Virus record (IMG/VR): IMGVR_UViG_3300027325_000009 | Span: 1 to 31,460 of that record | Length of the DNA stretch: 31,460 bases | Reading direction: 5' to 3' (one strand) | DNA from: a virus | Part shown: positions 6,445-31,282 of the stretch, piece after piece | Numbering within the stretch: position 1 is the stretch's first letter | Layout of the letters: each line of letters opens with the position of its first letter | Notes under the pieces: generated by a model | The model's database searches: none | Seen by the model: only the letters and a program-made list of their open reading frames with translations | Told to the model about the DNA's origin: nothing | Made by a program: the position numbers and the translations under genes

Positions 6445-6489
6445 AAAGTCAAGCAATACAAGGGTTTACAACCTTTAACGCTTGACTTT
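6445..6489. repeat. Large hairpin between the att core and the integrase
   Basis: A 10-bp perfect stem AAAGTCAAGC (6445-6454) / GCTTGACTTT (6480-6489) encloses an inner, slightly imperfect stem AAGGGTT / AACCTTT. On the plus strand it is followed by a T run. It may be the host tRNA terminator carried in the identity block, a terminator that shields the integrase from upstream transcription, or a structural part of attP. Confidence 0.55.
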
Positions 6490-6510
6490 TTTAAAACAAT
6501 TAAACAAAAA

Positions 6511-6530
6511 CGTACTACTAAACGTACTAC
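6511..6530. repeat. Right integrase arm-type site
   Basis: This 20-mer is identical to the copy at 6313-6332 and lies 9 bases upstream of the integrase GTG. Bound integrase would therefore sit on its own translation start or promoter region, allowing autoregulation. Confidence 0.7.
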
Positions 6531-6538
6531 CTAATAAG

Positions 6539-7759
6539 GTGAAAAAAACCTATTCTATAACATTTTATACCGGTGGCATCACCTGGGCTAAATGGTCAGA
6601 AAGTCCAAAAATTGAACGCGATAAAGCCTTAAAAAAAGACTGGTATATTCGATGGGCCTATCGCAACCCCGTCACCGGACTACTAGAAAAACAACCACAT
6701 ATTAAATCAGGCGTCAACAGACTAAAAACTGCAGGTGAGCGAATTGAATTCATGCGAACCTATAAAAAAGCGATGATCGAAACCTTTAACGAAGGAATAA
6801 ATCCATTTCAAAAAACTACGCCAGTAAACAAGTCAACCGAATTCGTGCCAGCTATAACAGCGCTAAATGACGCCCTAGAAAGCAAAAAAAATACCGTTGG
6901 CGCTCAATCTTTTCGCGATTACCGTACCGAAATAAAACGGTTCATCGATTACCTACAAACCAAAAACTTAGCCGCTGCAGATATCAAAACCATCAACCGT
7001 AGAATTGTAACCAACTACCTTTCAATAGTTTTAAAAAGAACATCAGCGCGAACCCGCAACAATACCAGGTCAGCATTGAGCGCAATATTTTCAGATCTCA
7101 AAGACACCTTTATAATTGATCGTAATTTTATAGATACCGACATTAAAAAACTAGCTACTAAATCAAAAACCGATAGACGCTTTACAATGAACCAAATGAA
7201 AGAGATTTCAAAACATTTACAAGAAACTAACCCACACCTATTATTGTATATCAAAATCGTTGCATATAACTTTTTGCGACCCATAGAGGTAAACCGATTA
7301 AAAGTGTCAGATATTGATCTCAAAGCGCGTGAAATGTATTTCAACCAAAAAACCAAATCAGGTAAAACAAAGTACATTCCAAATATTTATTTTAATGAAC
7401 TCAAAAAATTAACCGAAAGCGGAAAACCTAACGACTACCTTTTTACCCCACAGCGAAAACCCGCACAATGGAAAAGAAACGATAAGGGCCGTCGTGAATT
7501 TTTCACCCGCGAATTTTTGAAAATTAAAAAAGAATTAGGGTTGGGTAGCGAGTACGGGCTGTACTCATTTCGTCACAATTTCATAACAGGCACCTATATA
7601 GTACTTCGAAAAAATCAAGGTATGGGTAAAATTGAGGCGGTTGAATATTTAATGCGCATCACAGGCCATGAAAGTAAAGAAGGAATTCAAAAATATATTC
7701 ACGCGAACGATGCCGACCGCCCTGACGATTGGTCAAAACTACTTTCTTTTAAGTTATAA
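6539..7759 (+). CDS. int: Tyrosine integrase
   Basis: 406 residues from GTG at 6539 (VKKTYSITFYTGGITW); an upstream TTG at 6482 would place the arm-type repeat inside the coding region and is less likely. The protein has an N-terminal arm-binding region, a SAM-like core-binding domain (about 115-205) and a catalytic domain. Numbered from the GTG, catalytic residues are Arg247 (LRPIEVNRL), Lys at about 273-276 (TKSGKTK), Arg345 (YSFRHNF, where the usual first His is replaced by Tyr, as in many Bacteroidota integrases), His377 (TGHES) and Tyr386 (KYIHAND). It would recombine attP with the 3' end of a host tRNA. It converges on the lysis genes, overlapping the last one by six bases. Confidence 0.93.
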   Translation: MKKTYSITFYTGGITWAKWSESPKIERDKALKKDWYIRWAYRNPVTGLLEKQPHIKSGVNRLKTAGERIEFMRTYKKAMIETFNEGINPFQKTTPVNKSTEFVPAITALNDALESKKNTVGAQSFRDYRTEIKRFIDYLQTKNLAAADIKTINRRIVTNYLSIVLKRTSARTRNNTRSALSAIFSDLKDTFIIDRNFIDTDIKKLATKSKTDRRFTMNQMKEISKHLQETNPHLLLYIKIVAYNFLRPIEVNRLKVSDIDLKAREMYFNQKTKSGKTKYIPNIYFNELKKLTESGKPNDYLFTPQRKPAQWKRNDKGRREFFTREFLKIKKELGLGSEYGLYSFRHNFITGTYIVLRKNQGMGKIEAVEYLMRITGHESKEGIQKYIHANDADRPDDWSKLLSFKL

Positions 7760-18792: not shown

Positions 18793-21585
18793 TTATCTTC
18801 TTGCTTCAACTATTTTTTGTATCGGTACATTTGTAAACACCCCCGCTTTGCCGCTGACAATTTCAGCGGTAATATCTGCTTGTACTTTAGCATGAACCTT
18901 TTCAGCGTATTCAGGGTATAAGCCAAACCGCGCGGTGTTGAATACTTTTGCCTGCATTGCCAAACGCTTCACATCACCGGTGCGCATTAACGTCACCATT
19001 TGATAAGCACCAGCATCGAAATATTGAAACTCATAACTCATTGTAAATACGACCGTTGGCAAGGCCCCCGCTATAAATGCTGGGGTATCTCTCACCAGTA
19101 TGCCGTCAATGGTTAACCGCACCACCTGATCACTTTCTAAAGGTGGTTCAATAGTGATGTCATACCACTCGCGATCGATACGCTGAAAATCATACTGTGG
19201 GTCGTCTGCCCCTGAATTTTCATAATCAACAACAGGCGTTAATACTAGCGTATAATCTACCGCACGAGTAACACGAACCGTATCGCTTGCAGTCAAGCCT
19301 ATATCATCAGTCACCGTCACCACAAACTCATAAGCGTCACCTATCAAACCATCAATTGTAGTGGTCAACTGATCTGTTGCCCCAAAAAGAACATTACCGT
19401 CACCGCTCAATTGCTCCCATAAAACAGTAACAATAGTACCATCAGGATCATTTGCAACCGCAACCAAAGTAGTATCAAAATCTGCAGCGGCTAAAGCCTG
19501 ATCAACGCCAGCGTCAACCGTTGGCGGTAAGTTTTCGGTGACCGCCTGACCATAAAAATTTTGACTTAAAATTAATTCGCTTTCATAACGATCAAGCAAC
19601 CAAACCACATCAAGCGGGTAGAGCGTTTTTTGCCCTTGATATTGAAAGGAAACCATATCAAGCGGACTAACAAACCCCTTACAGGTGCCTGTAATTATCG
19701 GGTGACTTTTTGTATATAGATTACGAACTATCTTTGCATACACATCGCCAAAGCGCGCAAACGAAACACCGTAAAAAGCATCAGTATATAATTGCCATTC
19801 AGCAACATTGTTTGGTATCGGCGCAAAGGCCCGTTGTTCAATTCGAATACTATCACCATTCTGCACCAAGCCGCCAAAATCATCTGCATCATATTGCAAT
19901 AACATTTCTTGACTACCCAAGTAGTTATATTCAAAACCAATAATCAATAACGGGGTATTGTTAACGGTAACGTATAACGGATTTGCTAAAGCTAATTTTA
20001 AGAAGGCCAACGATAACTCAATATAATTACCATCTTCATTGTTTAGCGTATTGAAATTGCTAAATACTTCACTATCATATACAACCCCTGCATCGTTCAA
20101 CCGAGACAAGCGCATAAAATTTTCTAGCTTTCGTATATCGTCATGCAAGCTGATTTCAATTTCTTCATCTTGGGTATAAGTTTCGTTTATTTCGTCTATG
20201 TAGTATTGTTCTTCTTCTTGGTCTAAAATAACAACCTGCAGTTCTTCTAAAATAATGCGATCAACCTTTACCCCTGACACGCCCTGCGGTTGATAAAATC
20301 GAATATTGTAATACGCCGTTTCAGGCGCAATCATTTTAATTGCTAGCGCTGCCTTTCGGTCTTTACTAAAGCCTAATTGATAGCGCAGATCATCAGGCGC
20401 GGTGCCATTAATATTGCTATACAATAATACTTCATTGCCCGTAGTCACATCAGTATAATAAATATCGTACGGCTGCAGCTTCACCCAATCGCCATCAAGA
20501 AAAATATCATCATCGCTGCGGCCCTGCGTAGAACCTTCATACTCTGAATACAATTTTACCACCCATTCCATTTTTGAACCTGCAGCAATTAACACCTCTT
20601 TACGTAAGCGTATGCTTTGTGTTGGGGTTGTTGTTAGCGGCGCAAAAAAGGTTAAGCCGTTTTGGGTGTTGTACTTCGGAACAAATGACACATTTGAATA
20701 CACCCATTCGTGATTTGTCAATTCAATATCAGTCGCTAAAACATAGCCATCATTTTCTTGTTTGTATACCGCCTTATCAATCTGCTCTAAATTCAAATCG
20801 TGAAACACCGAAATTCGTTTTCTCGGCGTATTTGCGGTGATCACCGGTATATTATAAAACGTTGGCGTTTTAGGGGTGCGAGCAACAATAACCTCATTTT
20901 GATAAACCCCTGCAGCATCGTACTTTGAAAAGCTAATATCAAAACGGTTCAATTGATTCAAGCCCACAACATACCAGGCATTGTCTACCTGGTGAATACG
21001 ACACAAACTTGCTGCCATTAATTGCTTTAAAATTTCATAAGCATCATTTACGCCACTTTGCAAGGCATATTGCGAGGTATCAATAATGGCATCAAGCCAT
21101 TTCGGTTGTATCTTATTCACTAAAGCTGGCGCCATACAAATATCAAGCGTCAAGCCTGTTAACTTGAGAATCGCCGCCAGTACTTCGATAAGCGATTTTT
21201 CTTCAATATAAAAGTCATTGGGTAAAAATTGATTCTTTAACGAGCCGAGGCCACAACTTGCAATAAAATTAACAAAGAAAGCCCCATTTGTAAACGGTTC
21301 TTCATACTGGTCAGGCAATAGATGCCCCTGCCATAAAATTGCCGTTGTATCTTCGTTCACTATGGTTACCCGATAGCGGCGTTCGTCATGCGTTGCGAGG
21401 TGCGAAAAGTACGCATCTTGGTAATTGGTAACCTCCATCGAAAAACCAAACTCACTACCTAAAACAGTTTGTAGCTTATGCGAACCGCCCAACCAAGTTA
21501 GCACCAATGAATTTGCCTCAGCGTGTTCAAACACTGTTGCTGATTGCAATTTTTCGTTGTCGTATATGTTGATAGAAAACGCCAT
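18793..21585 (-). CDS. Tail-tip/baseplate protein with a PKD-like domain
   Basis: 930 residues. The N-terminal ~450 residues look like a distal-tail/tail-associated hub protein (SINIYDNEKLQSATVFEHAE, then YEILKQLMAASLCRIHQVDN, typical of proteins next to the tape measure in Bacteroidota phages). A Glu-rich stretch (EEEQYYIDEINETYTQDEE) lies near 455-475. A PKD/Ig-like domain (about 675-765) is recognisable by PPTVDAGVDQ, NDPDGTIVTVLWEQLSGDG and FVVTVTDDIGLTASDTV. A further beta domain ends the protein. It likely forms the tail tip that contacts the cell; PKD domains often bind glycans or proteins. Start ATG at 21585 overlaps the tape-measure stop as TAATG. Confidence 0.82.
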   Translation of the reverse strand: MAFSINIYDNEKLQSATVFEHAEANSLVLTWLGGSHKLQTVLGSEFGFSMEVTNYQDAYFSHLATHDERRYRVTIVNEDTTAILWQGHLLPDQYEEPFTNGAFFVNFIASCGLGSLKNQFLPNDFYIEEKSLIEVLAAILKLTGLTLDICMAPALVNKIQPKWLDAIIDTSQYALQSGVNDAYEILKQLMAASLCRIHQVDNAWYVVGLNQLNRFDISFSKYDAAGVYQNEVIVARTPKTPTFYNIPVITANTPRKRISVFHDLNLEQIDKAVYKQENDGYVLATDIELTNHEWVYSNVSFVPKYNTQNGLTFFAPLTTTPTQSIRLRKEVLIAAGSKMEWVVKLYSEYEGSTQGRSDDDIFLDGDWVKLQPYDIYYTDVTTGNEVLLYSNINGTAPDDLRYQLGFSKDRKAALAIKMIAPETAYYNIRFYQPQGVSGVKVDRIILEELQVVILDQEEEQYYIDEINETYTQDEEIEISLHDDIRKLENFMRLSRLNDAGVVYDSEVFSNFNTLNNEDGNYIELSLAFLKLALANPLYVTVNNTPLLIIGFEYNYLGSQEMLLQYDADDFGGLVQNGDSIRIEQRAFAPIPNNVAEWQLYTDAFYGVSFARFGDVYAKIVRNLYTKSHPIITGTCKGFVSPLDMVSFQYQGQKTLYPLDVVWLLDRYESELILSQNFYGQAVTENLPPTVDAGVDQALAAADFDTTLVAVANDPDGTIVTVLWEQLSGDGNVLFGATDQLTTTIDGLIGDAYEFVVTVTDDIGLTASDTVRVTRAVDYTLVLTPVVDYENSGADDPQYDFQRIDREWYDITIEPPLESDQVVRLTIDGILVRDTPAFIAGALPTVVFTMSYEFQYFDAGAYQMVTLMRTGDVKRLAMQAKVFNTARFGLYPEYAEKVHAKVQADITAEIVSGKAGVFTNVPIQKIVEARR

Positions 21586-23711
21586 TATGATACCCGACCA
21601 TTCAGTTCATTAACCCTATTTAATGCAATAGCAAACTGACGGTTGCTAAATTTCAATTCAGGCTGTAACACCACCACCCCGCCGTTGCTTTTAATCGCAC
21701 CCGCTAAATTCTTTTGTTGTGCAATGTTCAATATTAACTCACCACTATTGACCCGCGCCAATTGGGTATCACCAAAAAAGGAATTGCCAGGCACAAAACC
21801 ACCTGTTGCAAATTTTGGTATCGCAGCAAAGGCCGCCAATACCCCACCGACGGCCGTTGCAATAAATGCTGGGGTTGTAAATACCGCCGCAGGGCCTGTT
21901 GCAGAACCTGACGACGTTGCCCCAGCGATTGAGTTCGCTAAAGCCTGCGATAATGCGATTGAAATTAATTTTGTTACCGTTTGGGCTAAGGTTTTTACAA
22001 AGCCCTCAAAGCCTGTTTCTGCCAAACCAAGGCTATCAATAAATCGGTTCGTCATATTACTAAAGGCATCACCAACAGCACCGCCAACAATTTCTGAATT
22101 CTGTTGAAAGGCAGTCAACTCTTGTGAGGTTTCCGCGAGTGCAATTTTAATACCTTCGGTAGATTCTTTTAAATTTTCTGCAATAGTACCTAACGGATTC
22201 TCAACAAGACCCTGGGTAGATAGTTCTAGCTTTTCAGTTTGCGGGGTAAAAGGGCCACCATTTGAGGCACCCGTTTCTAAACCTGACTGTACCGCTGTTG
22301 CGACTTTATCTTGCAAGCCTTGGGTATCAACATTAGTGCCTAATAATTTATATTTTCTTGTACTAAGCGCGTTAGAAACACCACGACCGATATTTTCACC
22401 AAGCGATTTTTCAAGTGTTTTAAAATCATTTTCTAAATCTGCTACCAATGCCCCTGCAGCAGAAAAACCTTCGCGAAAACCTTTTTCTAAAATACCCGGT
22501 AGCGCTGCAAGGTCACCCGTTAAAATTGCCTTTACAAAATCACCAATATTACCGAACGCCGCTTTAATATTTGTGGCTGTTGCCGCGATGATACTACCTA
22601 AAGCATTAAAAACAAACTTACCCACCGCCCAAAGCGATTTGAACGATGCCGTAATGCCTTCAACAGCAATACGAAACAAGGCAGATTCGTTATATAGATC
22701 AATAAAATAATTCGCAATTTCTATCAATTGCGCTTTAATGGGTTGCCAATTTTTATAGATTACCACGCCAATAGCCGCCAAACCAGCAACCACCAAACCA
22801 ATAGGCCCGGTCAATAAAGCGAGGCCTGTGCCAATGGCCGGTAATATCGTACCCGCCAAAGCCAATAACGGGCCAGCAGCAGCAGCAACCCCACCTAATA
22901 TGACAATCCATTTTTTTGTTTGCGGTGATAAATTCTTAAAACGTGTTGCCACATCTTTTAAATACACAATTAACGGGTTCAAACCATCAACGATAATCGC
23001 GCCAAAATCTTCGGCAATATCACCAAGTATGTTTTTAAACTGCGTGAAAGGCCCTAACCCTGCAGCTGCAGCAGCTTTCGCCGAACCGCCGTATTGTTTT
23101 TCAAGTTCTGATAATATCACCCCTTGCGCCTCAGCAATTTTACCACCTTCAACCAGCGATTTTATTAATATTTTTTGATCTTTTGAAAACTGTATTCCCG
23201 ATCTACTAAGCGCAGAAAGGTTAGCAATAGGGTCGTTTAACGCTTTACCTAACTGTATAGAAGCACTTTTTAAATCACCATCAAGGCGGGTAGACAAATC
23301 AAGGGCCGCCTGTTGCGTGCGCGAAAACGCTTCGCCTGTAATATTTGTAAATGTGAGTAATTGCGCAGTAGCATCTTTCAATATAACTTCATCACCAAAT
23401 AACGAATTATTTTGCAAGGCTTCTGCCTGCTTTTCAAGTTCTTTTGTTGTAAAACCAACCGCATTGCCCGTTGACTTCAACCCCGCTTCTACTTGTGCCA
23501 AAGCCTTCGCCTGTTCGTCAAAGTTTTTGATTGCAATAGCAGACAAGGCTACAAGCGGGGCGGTTACCCCTACCGTAAGGCCAGCGCCCAGCTTCTGCAT
23601 TTTACGACCAACCTTATCTAGTTTTCGCTGTGCATTTTGCATCTGCGAACTAAACTGCTTTAGGTCGGCATTAAATCGAATCGATATGTCAGCAAATGAT
23701 GCGCTTCGGCT
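21585..23711 (-). CDS. Tape measure protein with probable AGC start
   Basis: About 708 residues. The N-terminal region DISIRFNADLKQFSS then MQNAQRKLDKVGRKM and the glycine/alanine-rich hydrophobic segments (ILGGVAAAAGPLLALAGTIL, GPIGLVVAGLAAIGVV) are typical of phage tape measures, which set tail length and form the DNA channel. The first in-frame ATG is at 23642, but conserved-looking tape-measure sequence continues upstream of it to about codon 2. Between the in-frame stop TAA (23721-23723) and that ATG there is no ATG, GTG, TTG or CTG. I place the start at AGC 23711, which follows an A-rich leader (AATAAATAAAAATACAAT), with AGC 23705 as an alternative. ATA 23687 and ATT 23681 are weaker options. 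The tRNA gene just upstream has anticodon GCU, cognate to AGC. Confidence 0.75.
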   Translation of the reverse strand, partial: SRSASFADISIRFNADLKQFSSQMQNAQRKLDKVGRKMQKLGAGLTVGVTAPLVALSAIAIKNFDEQAKALAQVEAGLKSTGNAVGFTTKELEKQAEALQNNSLFGDEVILKDATAQLLTFTNITGEAFSRTQQAALDLSTRLDGDLKSASIQLGKALNDPIANLSALSRSGIQFSKDQKILIKSLVEGGKIAEAQGVILSELEKQYGGSAKAAAAAGLGPFTQFKNILGDIAEDFGAIIVDGLNPLIVYLKDVATRFKNLSPQTKKWIVILGGVAAAAGPLLALAGTILPAIGTGLALLTGPIGLVVAGLAAIGVVIYKNWQPIKAQLIEIANYFIDLYNESALFRIAVEGITASFKSLWAVGKFVFNALGSIIAATATNIKAAFGNIGDFVKAILTGDLAALPGILEKGFREGFSAAGALVADLENDFKTLEKSLGENIGRGVSNALSTRKYKLLGTNVDTQGLQDKVATAVQSGLETGASNGGPFTPQTEKLELSTQGLVENPLGTIAENLKESTEGIKIALAETSQELTAFQQNSEIVGGAVGDAFSNMTNRFIDSLGLAETGFEGFVKTLAQTVTKLISIALSQALANSIAGATSSGSATGPAAVFTTPAFIATAVGGVLAAFAAIPKFATGGFVPGNSFFGDTQLARVNSGELILNIAQQKNLAGAIKSNGGVVVLQPELKFSNRQFAIALNRVNELNGRVS

Positions 23712-23736
23712 ATTGTATTTTTATTTATTATTCTAG

Positions 23737-23809
23737 TTGCAGGGGTTGGGTTCGAACCAACGGCCTCTCGCAAAGCAAGCGAGCGGGCTACCTACTGCCC
23801 CACCCTGCG
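23737..23809 (-). tRNA. Initiator-like tRNA with anticodon GCU
   Basis: A complete 73-base cloverleaf. Acceptor CGCAGGG / CCCTGCA has a C1xA72 mismatch and then six pairs. T8, G9 and D-arm GGGC-AGTAGGTA-GCCC follow, then G26, anticodon arm CTCGC-TTGCTTT-GCGAG (anticodon GCU, U37), variable loop AGGCC (five bases), T-arm GTTGG-TTCGAAC-CCAAC and A73. CCA is not encoded, as in the att tRNA fragment. The C1xA72 mismatch, purine11:pyrimidine24 (G11-C24) and G30-C40 within three G/C anticodon-stem pairs are hallmarks of bacterial initiator tRNA. The short variable loop rules out a normal serine tRNA despite the serine anticodon. Its 5' end overlaps the last codons of the tail chaperone T frame, and its 3' end lies 25 bases before the tape-measure AGC. 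Confidence 0.85.
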
Positions 23810-24105
23810 GCTTTATTTTTCTTTTGAGCATCGATCTCAGCAAATATGCGATCACGACTTTCTTTTGCTTCGGCAGCCTTGTCAACGACTTGTTTTGTGA
23901 TTTCTTTATCCCAAGGAAAAGGCATCAACTCTTGTGGCAACACCGTTGCGTTTTTTTCAAAATGCGGACTTAGCAATAAAAACGTTTGCGTTCGGGTACG
24001 TTCCCACGCATCGCGTTCTAATTTTCTGAATCCGGTTATCTTATTAAAAAAAGAACGTAACGAAATTTGATCTAATTCGGTTTCGCTCATTTGCATTTCG
24101 CCCAA
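23788..24105 (-). CDS. Tail assembly chaperone T part (by -1 frameshift)
   Basis: This frame lacks a good start: TTG at 24105, ATG at 24096 and 24090. It is open back to the end of the upstream chaperone gene. Translated from 24144 it reads VNLFSWDDVEEIALGEMQMS then ETELDQISLRSFF, which looks like the usual start of the T-type tail chaperone domain, so the domain begins before any ATG. Inference: it is made as a G-T fusion by -1 frameshifting at 24144-24153, as in lambda G/GT. The rest is helical (RKLERDAWERTRTQTFLLLSP). The last eight residues (KAAGWGSR) and the TAG are encoded inside the 5' half of the tRNA, so translation and tRNA production share sequence. Confidence 0.7.
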   Translation of the reverse strand: MGEMQMSETELDQISLRSFFNKITGFRKLERDAWERTRTQTFLLLSPHFEKNATVLPQELMPFPWDKEITKQVVDKAAEAKESRDRIFAEIDAQKKNKAAGWGSR

Positions 24106-24140: not shown

Positions 24141-24521
24141 TTACTTTTTCCCCGACTTGCGGGGTTTGGGCTTTCCCTCTTTTTGGTTGCCTTTCGGCAT
24201 TGACTGCATAAACAATTCAAATATTTGTGCGATTGAAGACATATCAGCAAAGAAGGCATCAACAGTATCGGTGCGATCAATAGCATCAGTCTCGTCTTCT
24301 TTTGCGGCATTTACAATACCCGCCCAAATAATATCACCAATGGTATCTAAGTTGTCAAAGCTCAATTCAAAATCTTTGCCCTCGGGTATCATACCACCCA
24401 CCTTTTCAACTACAGGTACAAAGCCATTCATACCCCAAATACCACCTAGTAAACGAATTGCACCGTACCCAAATTTAACTGGGTACGATACATTGTTTAC
24501 TTTTATCTTGGTTACTTTCAT
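24141..24521 (-). CDS. Tail assembly chaperone G
   Basis: 126 residues, between the tail tube and the tape measure, where the G-type chaperone is always found in long-tailed phages. It is acidic with a Lys/Pro-rich end (KPKPRKSGKK) just before the stop. It holds the tape measure soluble and recruits tail tube subunits; that is family knowledge. The start ATG at 24521 is preceded by the tail tube gene (stop at 24525). The C-terminal codons contain the probable slippery region. Confidence 0.75.
   Translation of the reverse strand: MKVTKIKVNNVSYPVKFGYGAIRLLGGIWGMNGFVPVVEKVGGMIPEGKDFELSFDNLDTIGDIIWAGIVNAAKEDETDAIDRTDTVDAFFADMSSIAQIFELFMQSMPKGNQKEGKPKPRKSGKK
24144..24153 (-). promoter_or_regulatory. 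Probable -1 ribosomal frameshift site
   Basis: On the minus strand the last sense codons of gene G read TCG GGG AAA AAG then TAA. The run GGGGAAAAAG allows a -1 slip into the T frame (GTA AAT CTC ...). It is not a canonical X XXY YYZ heptamer (G AAA AAG). A hairpin CCCCG-CAAGT-CGGGG immediately before it could contribute. The evidence for slippage is the open T frame and the recognisable domain in it. Confidence 0.55.
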
Positions 24522-24524
24522 GCT

Positions 24525-24974
24525 TTAGTTACTTGCTGGCGCTTCAACCGTTTTATCAATCGCCTCAATATCACCTGAACCGCTAACGGTTAGTGAAATG
24601 GTGCCATCTTCATCAACATTAAATGTACCATCTAAAGCGGTTAAGATGCCCTCACCTCTATAGTAATATGCGTAATCGGTTTCGTTTGGCACAAACTCCA
24701 CTTCAACCAAGGCATCGGTATCATCTTTCCATAAATCAAACAGCGCTTTAAAGTCATGCGCATCATTGCCATCACTTGCATATACCGCCAACCCGTTATA
24801 CGTTGCTGACCAGGTGCGCGTACTTTTCGTAGTTGCCCCCGCTGCAGTATCTTTGGTTGCTGCACGTTGTTTGGTATCACGCGCTAAGGATAGCGAGCAA
24901 CCCGTTGCATCAAAAATCTTTTTATCATTCAACAGCAACCTTAAATTGCCGCTTTGTACTTTTTCGTTTGCCAT
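24525..24974 (-). CDS. Major tail tube protein
   Basis: 149 residues of the TP901-1/HK97-type tail tube family: MANEKVQSGNLRLLLNDKKI at the N-terminus, CSLSLARDTKQRAATKDT with the typical loop, then TWSATYNGLAVYASD and a beta-rich C-terminal half (GTISLTVSGSGDIEAI). It polymerises into the tail tube around the tape measure. Its place between tail terminator and chaperone fits. Confidence 0.88.
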   Translation of the reverse strand: MANEKVQSGNLRLLLNDKKIFDATGCSLSLARDTKQRAATKDTAAGATTKSTRTWSATYNGLAVYASDGNDAHDFKALFDLWKDDTDALVEVEFVPNETDYAYYYRGEGILTALDGTFNVDEDGTISLTVSGSGDIEAIDKTVEAPASN

Positions 24975-29178: not shown

Positions 29179-30388
29179 CTTTCAATTTTTTATCAATCTC
29201 GTCTTGCGTTTGCAAATTGGTCATTTGCAAAAATTCATCACCACCAGCATACGGCGACATATCTTCGGCGGCCCTTACTTCATTAGGGTTCATTGCTTTG
29301 ATATAGACCATATCTTTAAAATATTGCGCTCTTGCTGCAGGGTCAACCTCTAGCAGTTTGCGGTAATTCATAAAAATATAAGCGCCGTTTATCACCTTTT
29401 CATCACGCGACAATAATTTTCGTTGTATTTCTTCTTTGATTTTTTGACCTAATGGCTGCACAGCGGTCTGCAGGTATTCCATAGACATTTGCACCAAAAA
29501 ATTATAGCCGCCTTCGCCTTTTGCGTGCAGTTTATGCAAAGGAATAGACAACCAGCGCGCAATATCTTCAACCCCTTGTGCCTTGGCAGCTATAAAAGCA
29601 GATTCTGCAGGGGTGATCGAAATAGGTCGGTATCGCATACCTTCGTCAAGAACGGTGACACGATCTTTGTTGCCGGTTGCTAGGTTCTTTTCAAATGTGT
29701 ATTTTAAAGCGTTTTTACCTGGTTTCGTGATATCAATACCGGCTTGCACCTCAATTACTCCATAATTCAACCCTTTATCAGCATAAGCATCTGCAGCAAA
29801 TTCATCTGCAGCGAGTGAAACGCCTAAATTATCAGCGGCATACTGCAAGGCCGACCGCCCTGAGATACCATCAAAACAAAACGCTGGCACGTGAAATACT
29901 TCGGAAGCAAAAAATAAAGTTTTATGTTTGCTATGTTTATAAAACAATTCGCCATTATAAAACATTGGGGTAACATCTTCATTATCCCAAAGGGTCATTG
30001 AAATCGGCACCCCTGAACCATTGCGAACAATCAGCGCATAGCCGTTGCCTTTCATTAGCATACAAACCGCAAAAGAAAACCAAAAACTAAAAGCAGTCAT
30101 TAGCTTGTTTGGTTCGTTATGAATCATATAATCAACAGGGTGGTCGTTCAGTAAATTAATCTTGCCTTTGTTTTTTGTCATTACGTGTTTAGGCAAGAGC
30201 GCTAAACTATTGGCGATGGTGGTGACCCCGCAAAAGAAAGCGGAAATCTTTAAAGCGGTATTGGTATTTATTTTTCCGCCAGCCTTAGTAGTGGCCCCAG
30301 CGCCAAAACCAAAGAAAGGCATACCGGTTAGTGAACCGGTTGCCCTTTTTTGACCTAAATTTGCAAATGCTTGATTAAACAAATTCAT
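29144..30388 (-). CDS. Portal protein, HK97 family
   Basis: 414 residues: KINTNTALKISAFFCGVTTI near the start (the 'VY/ACV..IA..va.LPl' region of HK97 portals), helix DDFAADAYADKGLNYG-like segment, and a C-terminal part (VDPAARAQYFKDMVYIKAMN, then NEVRAAEDMSPYAGG). It forms the dodecameric DNA gate and docks the terminase. The terminase genes are not upstream in this window; a tyrosine recombinase gene is there instead. Confidence 0.9.
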   Translation of the reverse strand: MNLFNQAFANLGQKRATGSLTGMPFFGFGAGATTKAGGKINTNTALKISAFFCGVTTIANSLALLPKHVMTKNKGKINLLNDHPVDYMIHNEPNKLMTAFSFWFSFAVCMLMKGNGYALIVRNGSGVPISMTLWDNEDVTPMFYNGELFYKHSKHKTLFFASEVFHVPAFCFDGISGRSALQYAADNLGVSLAADEFAADAYADKGLNYGVIEVQAGIDITKPGKNALKYTFEKNLATGNKDRVTVLDEGMRYRPISITPAESAFIAAKAQGVEDIARWLSIPLHKLHAKGEGGYNFLVQMSMEYLQTAVQPLGQKIKEEIQRKLLSRDEKVINGAYIFMNYRKLLEVDPAARAQYFKDMVYIKAMNPNEVRAAEDMSPYAGGDEFLQMTNLQTQDEIDKKLKDEKQKVEQTAN

Positions 30389-30478: not shown

Positions 30479-31282
30479 TTACATTGGCATAACTACTTTT
30501 GAAAGTGCTTTTTTTGATACGTGTGTATATATTTGGGTGGTTTTAATATCGCTATGCCCTAGTAGCTTTTGTATTATAGAAATATCTGTGCCTGCTTCTA
30601 GAAGTGCCGTTGCATTTGAGTGTCTTAATTGATGGTAATGGTACTGATTACCTAAGTACTTTTTTACTAATTTATTTGCGCTTGATCGGGTATACTTAGA
30701 AAAGGGTTTTTGCCCGTTAAATAGATATATTTTTGGTTTGAATTCGCAGGCATATTCTTCAAAAGTGTGTAGCAAGTTTGCTGACATTACCACAAAACGA
30801 TCTTTGTTGCCTTTTCCGTTTTTAATTAAAATCATCATACGGGCGCGGTCGATACATTGCATTTTCAAATTACAAACCTCGCTCACCCGAAGGCCACAAC
30901 TAAAGCCGAGCATTAAAATTGCTTTATGCTTTAAATTAGGTATGTCATTAATTCGGTTGATTAAGAAATTAGTATCTATCACCTGGGGTAATGTTTTTGC
31001 TTTCTTTGGGTAGGGAATTTTACTAATTTTAGAAGGCATATTTACAGTCAATTTATAAAAACTAGCAACGCTGCACAGCATTTGCTTTCGGGTGTTTAAG
31101 GTTTTGAAAGTAAGTAGCCAGGTTTTTATTGCTGCAGTTGGAATTGCTTTAGGCTCAACAGCACTCGAAAATTGTTTTAAAAATTTAGAGACACAATACT
31201 TGTATGTTCTACGGGTTGCCTCCGATTGATATTTTATGTCGCAATCTCTCGAATAGTTGTGTTCCCATTTTCGAATATTCAT
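30479..31282 (-). CDS. Second tyrosine recombinase (XerC/D-like)
   Basis: 267 residues, shorter than the integrase, with a SAM-like N-terminal domain (about 15-80) and a full catalytic domain: Arg132 (GLRVSE), Lys157/160 (GKGNKD), His217 and Arg220 (YHYHQLRHSN), His243 (LGHSD) and Tyr252 (QIYTHVS). It is not next to an att site in the window. It may resolve phage genome dimers, act in DNA inversion, or be a hitch-hiking element. Start ATG at 31282. The 90 bases between it and the portal (30389-30478) contain no gene I can support. Confidence 0.88.
   Translation of the reverse strand: MNIRKWEHNYSRDCDIKYQSEATRRTYKYCVSKFLKQFSSAVEPKAIPTAAIKTWLLTFKTLNTRKQMLCSVASFYKLTVNMPSKISKIPYPKKAKTLPQVIDTNFLINRINDIPNLKHKAILMLGFSCGLRVSEVCNLKMQCIDRARMMILIKNGKGNKDRFVVMSANLLHTFEEYACEFKPKIYLFNGQKPFSKYTRSSANKLVKKYLGNQYHYHQLRHSNATALLEAGTDISIIQKLLGHSDIKTTQIYTHVSKKALSKVVMPM

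Follow-up and report, generated by a model that had tools for sequence, protein, structure and literature searches.

The window, by which we mean the whole stretch of DNA that was analysed, is a 31,460-base virus record from IMG/VR. Its genes include those for the portal, the capsid, the major tail protein, the tape measure, DnaB and integrase. A tRNA gene sits in its tail module, flanked on one side by a short ORF (phrog_16333) and on the other by the gene for the tail tape measure protein (TMP). The features of this locus, in the direction of transcription, are the following:

24525..24974 (-): major tail protein (phrog_1407)
24141..24521 (-): tail-module ORF lying upstream, in assembly-chaperone position (position only; no family match)
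23788..24105 (-): short tail ORF phrog_16333, with its TAG stop within the D loop of the tRNA (ORF list, PHROG)
23737..23809 (-): tRNA, initiator-like, anticodon GCU (ARAGORN, Rfam RF00005, parsed features)
23734..23736 (-): CTA instead of an encoded CCA end (sequence)
23721..23723 (-): in-frame TAA stop that precedes AGC by 6 codons (sequence)
23706..23706 (-): A at -1, which would face U37 of the tRNA; a wobble pair of U38 with the G at -2 is possible (sequence)
23703..23705 (-): proposed AGC start codon of TMP, where relatives have ATG (context CGA AGC GCA TCA TTT, with AGC as the start)
21585..23705 (-): tail tape measure gene, 706 aa when read from AGC (PHROG tape measure families, alignment, synonymous changes in codons 2-21)

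Elsewhere in the window lie two tyrosine recombinases, at 6482-7759 and at 30479-31282; the latter immediately precedes the portal gene. None of the window proteins searched was recognised as a terminase, so this may be an incomplete record.

The tRNA is complete and has the body of an initiator. ARAGORN placed a tRNA at 23736-23809 (-), with gct as its anticodon, and Rfam RF00005 matched 23737-23809 (-) over the full model (56.3 bits, E=9e-10), both in agreement with a preliminary description, made from the sequence alone, of a full cloverleaf with anticodon GCU and U37. The parsed cloverleaf likewise contains the CxA mismatch at pair 1:72, the G-C pair at 11:24 (i.e. purine 11 : pyrimidine 24), the five-nucleotide variable loop (AGGCC) and the discriminator A73 that had been listed there, and the agreement with E. 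coli tRNA(fMet), estimated by hand at about 44 of 56 positions, was computed against E. coli metZ as 43 of 55 identical positions outside the anticodon arm. The account of the anticodon stem survived only in part: the stem, CUCGC/GCGAG, has C-G at 29, G-C at 30 and C-G at 31, such that G30-C40 is present and the G-G-G/C-C-C run of bacterial initiators (29-41, 30-40, 31-39) is reduced to this one pair in the initiator orientation. The window tRNA therefore shares with metZ the 1:72 mismatch, R11:Y24, G30-C40, A73 and a short variable loop, and is unlike it in the C-G pairs at 29-41 and 31-39, in lacking an encoded CCA, and in its anticodon loop, UUGCUUU, where GCU and U37 replace CAU and A37. 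In bacterial initiators the 1:72 mismatch serves formylation and G30-C40 serves P-site binding (PMC11497404). The minimum-free-energy fold of the RNA is not a cloverleaf, and the identification thus rests on the covariance model and on relatives. Those at the same locus retain precisely the traits whose loss the preliminary description had held would count against it, namely a 1:72 mismatch, R11:Y24 and G30-C40, together with U37 and A73. Across the relatives compared, the mismatch is CxU, CxA, AxA or TxT, pair 11:24 is G-C or A-U in all, the stem pairs 29 and 31 are variable, and the 3' tail is CTA in one relative (L008), as in the window, and CAA or CTT in the others. A type II serine tRNA, the name given by ARAGORN from the anticodon, is ruled out by the five-nucleotide variable loop, since a long arm would be required.

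Immediately downstream of this tRNA, the mechanically called ORF of TMP (21585-23642) begins at an internal ATG at 23642 and lacks the first 21 residues that are conserved in the family. The reading frame extends upstream of this ATG through SFADISIRFNADLKQFSSQ up to the stop at 23721-23723, and no ATG, GTG or TTG was found between that stop and codon 22. The N-terminus of the TMP relatives reads M-ASFADISIRFxADLKQFSSQMQNAQR, and in the alignment the window has AGC at their ATG. In all relatives the protein sequence encoded by codons 2-21 is conserved, and because the window and its relative L006 differ in this segment by 11 synonymous changes and 1 nonsynonymous change, the segment must be translated. 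A start at the internal ATG was rejected on this protein-level conservation, and translation from an upstream frame or a fusion to the preceding ORF on the in-frame stop that intervenes. No second AGC start was found in the window, where the other minus-strand genes checked all begin with an ATG, GTG or TTG of their own.

Comparison of TMP relatives revealed that anticodon and start codon change together. The TMP start codon is AGC in the window, L008 and L110, each of which has an upstream tRNA with anticodon GCU, and AGG in L028 and L082, each of which has an upstream tRNA with anticodon CCU (L082 and L110 came from a wider search for TMP relatives). In a count over 79 relatives that differ from one another in their first 120 nt, all five TMP genes without a canonical start have an initiator-like upstream tRNA with a matching anticodon (GCU-AGC three times, CCU-AGG twice), whereas a non-CAU tRNA is present upstream in none of the 74 that have a canonical start (5/5 vs 0/74, Fisher p=4.4e-8). 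ARAGORN missed the GCU tRNA of L110 (2023-2100), probably because of its odd T loop, GGCGGAA in place of TTCGAAT; the same tRNA recurs in another contig (L267), and the loop is possibly a special form rather than an error. At the same locus L101 has a CAU initiator tRNA with A37, and its TMP starts with ATG. This is plausibly the ancestral state, from which single-base steps in the anticodon (CAU-CCU-GCU) and in the start codon (AUG-AGG-AGC) would connect all three. Within the TMP group the distance from tRNA to TMP start ranges from 104 nt to 1.25 kb; the insertions that separate the two in L008 (4760-5930) and L110 (2110-2940) hold ORFs that by eye are antirepressor-like or homing-endonuclease-like.

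The association also held prospectively. For three phages with initiator-like tRNAs of the NCU, U37 type (L262, L264, L265), an anticodon-matched start downstream was predicted in writing before the downstream DNA was seen, and such a start was present in all three. With a slash placed before the start codon, these are the TMP start CTGA / AGC GCA AAT TTA (SANLASINIKFN) beside a GCU tRNA (L262/L268), the TMP start CTAA / AGG GCA ACA TTT (RATFGTISIRFN) beside a CCU tRNA (L264/L269), and the major head protein start AAGGAGTAGCTGA / AGG beside another CCU tRNA (L265/L270). The evidence base here consists mostly of metagenomic contigs. The proposal in the preliminary description of a dedicated initiator reading AGC is thus supported by the replacement of the TMP ATG with AGC and by the covariation of anticodon and start codon across phages; the target gene, the further pairs described below and the contact of U37 with the base at -1 go beyond it.

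Scans in which the anticodon was left free and U37 was fixed recovered initiator-like viral tRNAs with anticodons CAU, CCU, GCU, GAC, AAC and CAC, and a separate NCU scan added ACU. In unrelated phages, codons matching these anticodons occupy the start position of genes, preceded by a Shine-Dalgarno sequence and by an A at -1. Among phages with a CCU tRNA, L242/L243 have AGG starts on TMP (GGAGGTGACAGCA / AGG), endolysin (GGGAGGCGATGACTA / AGG) and a small late gene for an 89-aa protein (AAGGAGGGCGGCCTA / AGG), the tRNA of L242 lying more than 4 kb from its target; L247 has one on the terminase small subunit (TerS), and L266 has them on the portal and a virion protein. The ACU phage L246 has three AGU starts, the AAC phage L244 has two GUU starts, one of them on a ParB-like gene, and four GAC phages (L043, L055, L056, L062) have GUC and GUU starts. 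PHROG profiles align within a few residues of most such starts, residue 4 of TerS, for instance, at position 3 of 110. When sites with a Shine-Dalgarno sequence and a preceding A were cross-tabulated by phage group, they fell on the diagonal by anticodon except for GUU, which is common to AAC and GAC. The GAC tRNAs that were parsed (L043, L250) have C30-G40 rather than G30-C40, yet the GUC/GUU starts match. For the CAC phage L061 a clear dedicated GUG gene was sought and none was found; the plasmids searched gave no match, and the NCU-U37 pattern was not found in 396 genomes of the phylum of L002. On these sequence comparisons, the window tRNA is one member of a class of putative phage initiator tRNA/start-codon pairs.

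Several further observations bear on the distribution of such tRNAs. The cultured Bacteroides phage BS-TP2 (PQ571275), which grows on B. salyersiae BG8, has an unannotated initiator-like GAC tRNA at 30195-30269, and the probable start of its gp53 (annotated as 30751-30912) is GTC 30718, ahead of the ATG given in the annotation. In the group of L043, L055, L056, L062 and L250, some Bacteroides-type genes have a clear AGGAGG, which is unusual for that phylum. Many viral initiator-like tRNAs have the standard CAU with U37 instead of A37 (L040, L042, L045, L047, L048, L050, L051, L223-L241), and these may prefer an AUG preceded by A.

The bases next to the anticodon and to the start codon suggest a fourth base pair, between U37 and the A at -1. 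An A precedes all five noncanonical TMP starts versus 45 of the 74 canonical ones, and among matched sites preceded by a Shine-Dalgarno sequence it is found in 3/3 for ACU, 6/6 for GAC and 2/3 for AAC. In CCU phages, however, the excess of A(-1) at Shine-Dalgarno-preceded AGG sites does not stand out from background (Fisher p=1): AGG forms part of Shine-Dalgarno runs, and so the count cannot separate true AGG starts; the CCU cases therefore rest on homology of gene starts. Pairing of base -2 with base 38 is usually possible (G.U38, C/U-G38, U-A38, A-U38), with L028 and L266 as exceptions, and a five-base rule is kept as a tendency only. In the extended interaction of initiator tRNA described by Esposito and colleagues, A37 reportedly contacts U-1. 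The window pair would resemble that interaction in joining base 37 to base -1 and differ from it in having U37 face A(-1) alongside a new anticodon. The extended codon-anticodon interaction of initiator tRNA, base 37 with base -1, is attributed to Esposito et al. 2003 as cited in PMC9841429.

As to the amino acid, the bacterial arginine identity set comprises C35, U/G36, A/G73, G2-C71, C3-G70 and A20 in the D loop (PMC9976931). The window tRNA has C35, U36, A73, G2-C71 and C3-G70; position 20 of its D loop (AGUAGGUA) is U, and since A20 is a main bacterial arginine determinant, its absence counts against arginine charging. Charging of the NCU tRNAs with arginine, via C35-U36, is plausible all the same, in line with the arginine identity suggested in the preliminary description, and the NAC tRNAs (A35-C36) would receive valine. 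SerRS should not accept a tRNA with so short a variable arm. Only Met-, Arg- and Val-type anticodons appeared, which fits a synthetase constraint.

We consider it very probable that the window tRNA is a dedicated second initiator for the AGC start of TMP. In this mechanism the tRNA would be made, charged and formylated, its initiator features (1:72 mismatch, R11:Y24, G30-C40) would bring it into the ribosomal P site, and there its GCU anticodon would pair with the AGC codon, U37 with A(-1) adding a fourth pair, such that protein synthesis starts at AGC. TMP, directly downstream, is the only evident target in the window phage, and the host CAU initiator presumably could not start it properly. 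The distances from tRNA to target, 104 nt to more than 4 kb, support action in trans. The purpose may be to make late structural or lysis genes dependent on a phage-made tRNA, for timing, for dosing late proteins that are long or toxic, or for initiation without the host initiator tRNA, a target of some toxins; VapC toxins, as cited in PMC10264068, cleave initiator tRNA. With less assurance, we lean towards a broader proposal of a private start code in phages of several bacterial lineages, in which a U37 tRNA charged by ArgRS or ValRS would read a four-base A+AGN or A+GUN signal on selected genes (tape measure, lysis, packaging, head), and the proteins would begin with formyl-Arg or formyl-Val.

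Three other explanations were weighed. The element might be a cis-acting tRNA-like structure in a polycistronic mRNA, serving as an RNase P/RNase Z processing site or as a translational switch, with no working tRNA. It does lie between tail genes, where processing would cut the message, and in the window, L008 and L028 the tRNA contains the stop of the upstream gene; such a role could coexist with that of a tRNA. As the whole explanation it is very unlikely, given that the distance between the element and its target varies between 104 nt and over 4 kb and that anticodon-codon covariation in unrelated phages would be left unexplained. Still less likely is an ordinary phage elongator or codon-compensation tRNA, for serine or arginine, that came to lie beside TMP by chance, with TMP translated from the ATG at codon 22 or from a weak AUA/AUU. 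The ARAGORN label of tRNA-Ser and the in-frame ATG at 23642 speak for it. However, U37 is not typical of elongator tRNAs, the initiator features stay constant as the anticodon varies, codons 2-21 of TMP are conserved as protein in all relatives, and the pairs match in 5/5 retrospective and 3/3 prospective cases.

Phages do integrate into tRNA genes, and the body of the window tRNA resembles host initiators, as would be expected of an integration-site remnant or decoy copy of a host initiator whose mutations have no consequence. This origin is nevertheless hardly credible: the tRNA sits midway within the tail module and at a distance from both integrases, it has no duplicate in the record, and relatives hold it at the same place with matched start codons.

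The accepted view of initiation in bacteria is that it relies on a single tRNA identity (fMet, CAU) and on AUG-like codons. Phages of Erythrobacter, Xanthomonas and Pseudomonas encode tRNA-Met (CAU) genes that are likewise phage-borne initiator bodies, often unannotated; those sampled differ from the window tRNA in decoding AUG, in having A37 or a near-standard loop, and in having no private start codon. Two Erythrobacter phages, R6L and ZS04, carry such an unannotated initiator-like tRNA-Met by the terminase gene (L003 3003-3079, L004 3003-3079), about 75-76% identical to the window tRNA. Initiators with altered anticodons support non-AUG initiation in vitro, as in a CAC/GUG pair (PMC13232202), and engineered non-AUG initiators of this type (UAG/CUA amber; CAC/GUG in vitro, PMC13232202) follow the same principle, a matching tRNA and start codon giving orthogonal initiation; they are man-made, whereas the phage pairs are natural and combine U37/A(-1) with dedicated phage genes. 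The reassignment of AGG to methionine in a Bacilli clade (PMC8629427) also involves a tRNA-CCU and unusual AGG use, but it concerns elongation, is genome-wide and derives from tRNA-Arg. No natural precedent for alternative initiator tRNA/start-codon pairs was found in the open-access literature.

If correct, the proposal means that natural alternative initiator pairs operate on chosen viral genes as a second, private start code. Some phage tRNAs, the role of which is under debate (PMC10264068), would thereby gain a specific function. Genes with such starts would be missed or cut short by gene callers, and the phage pairs would give synthetic biology ready-made parts for orthogonal initiation.
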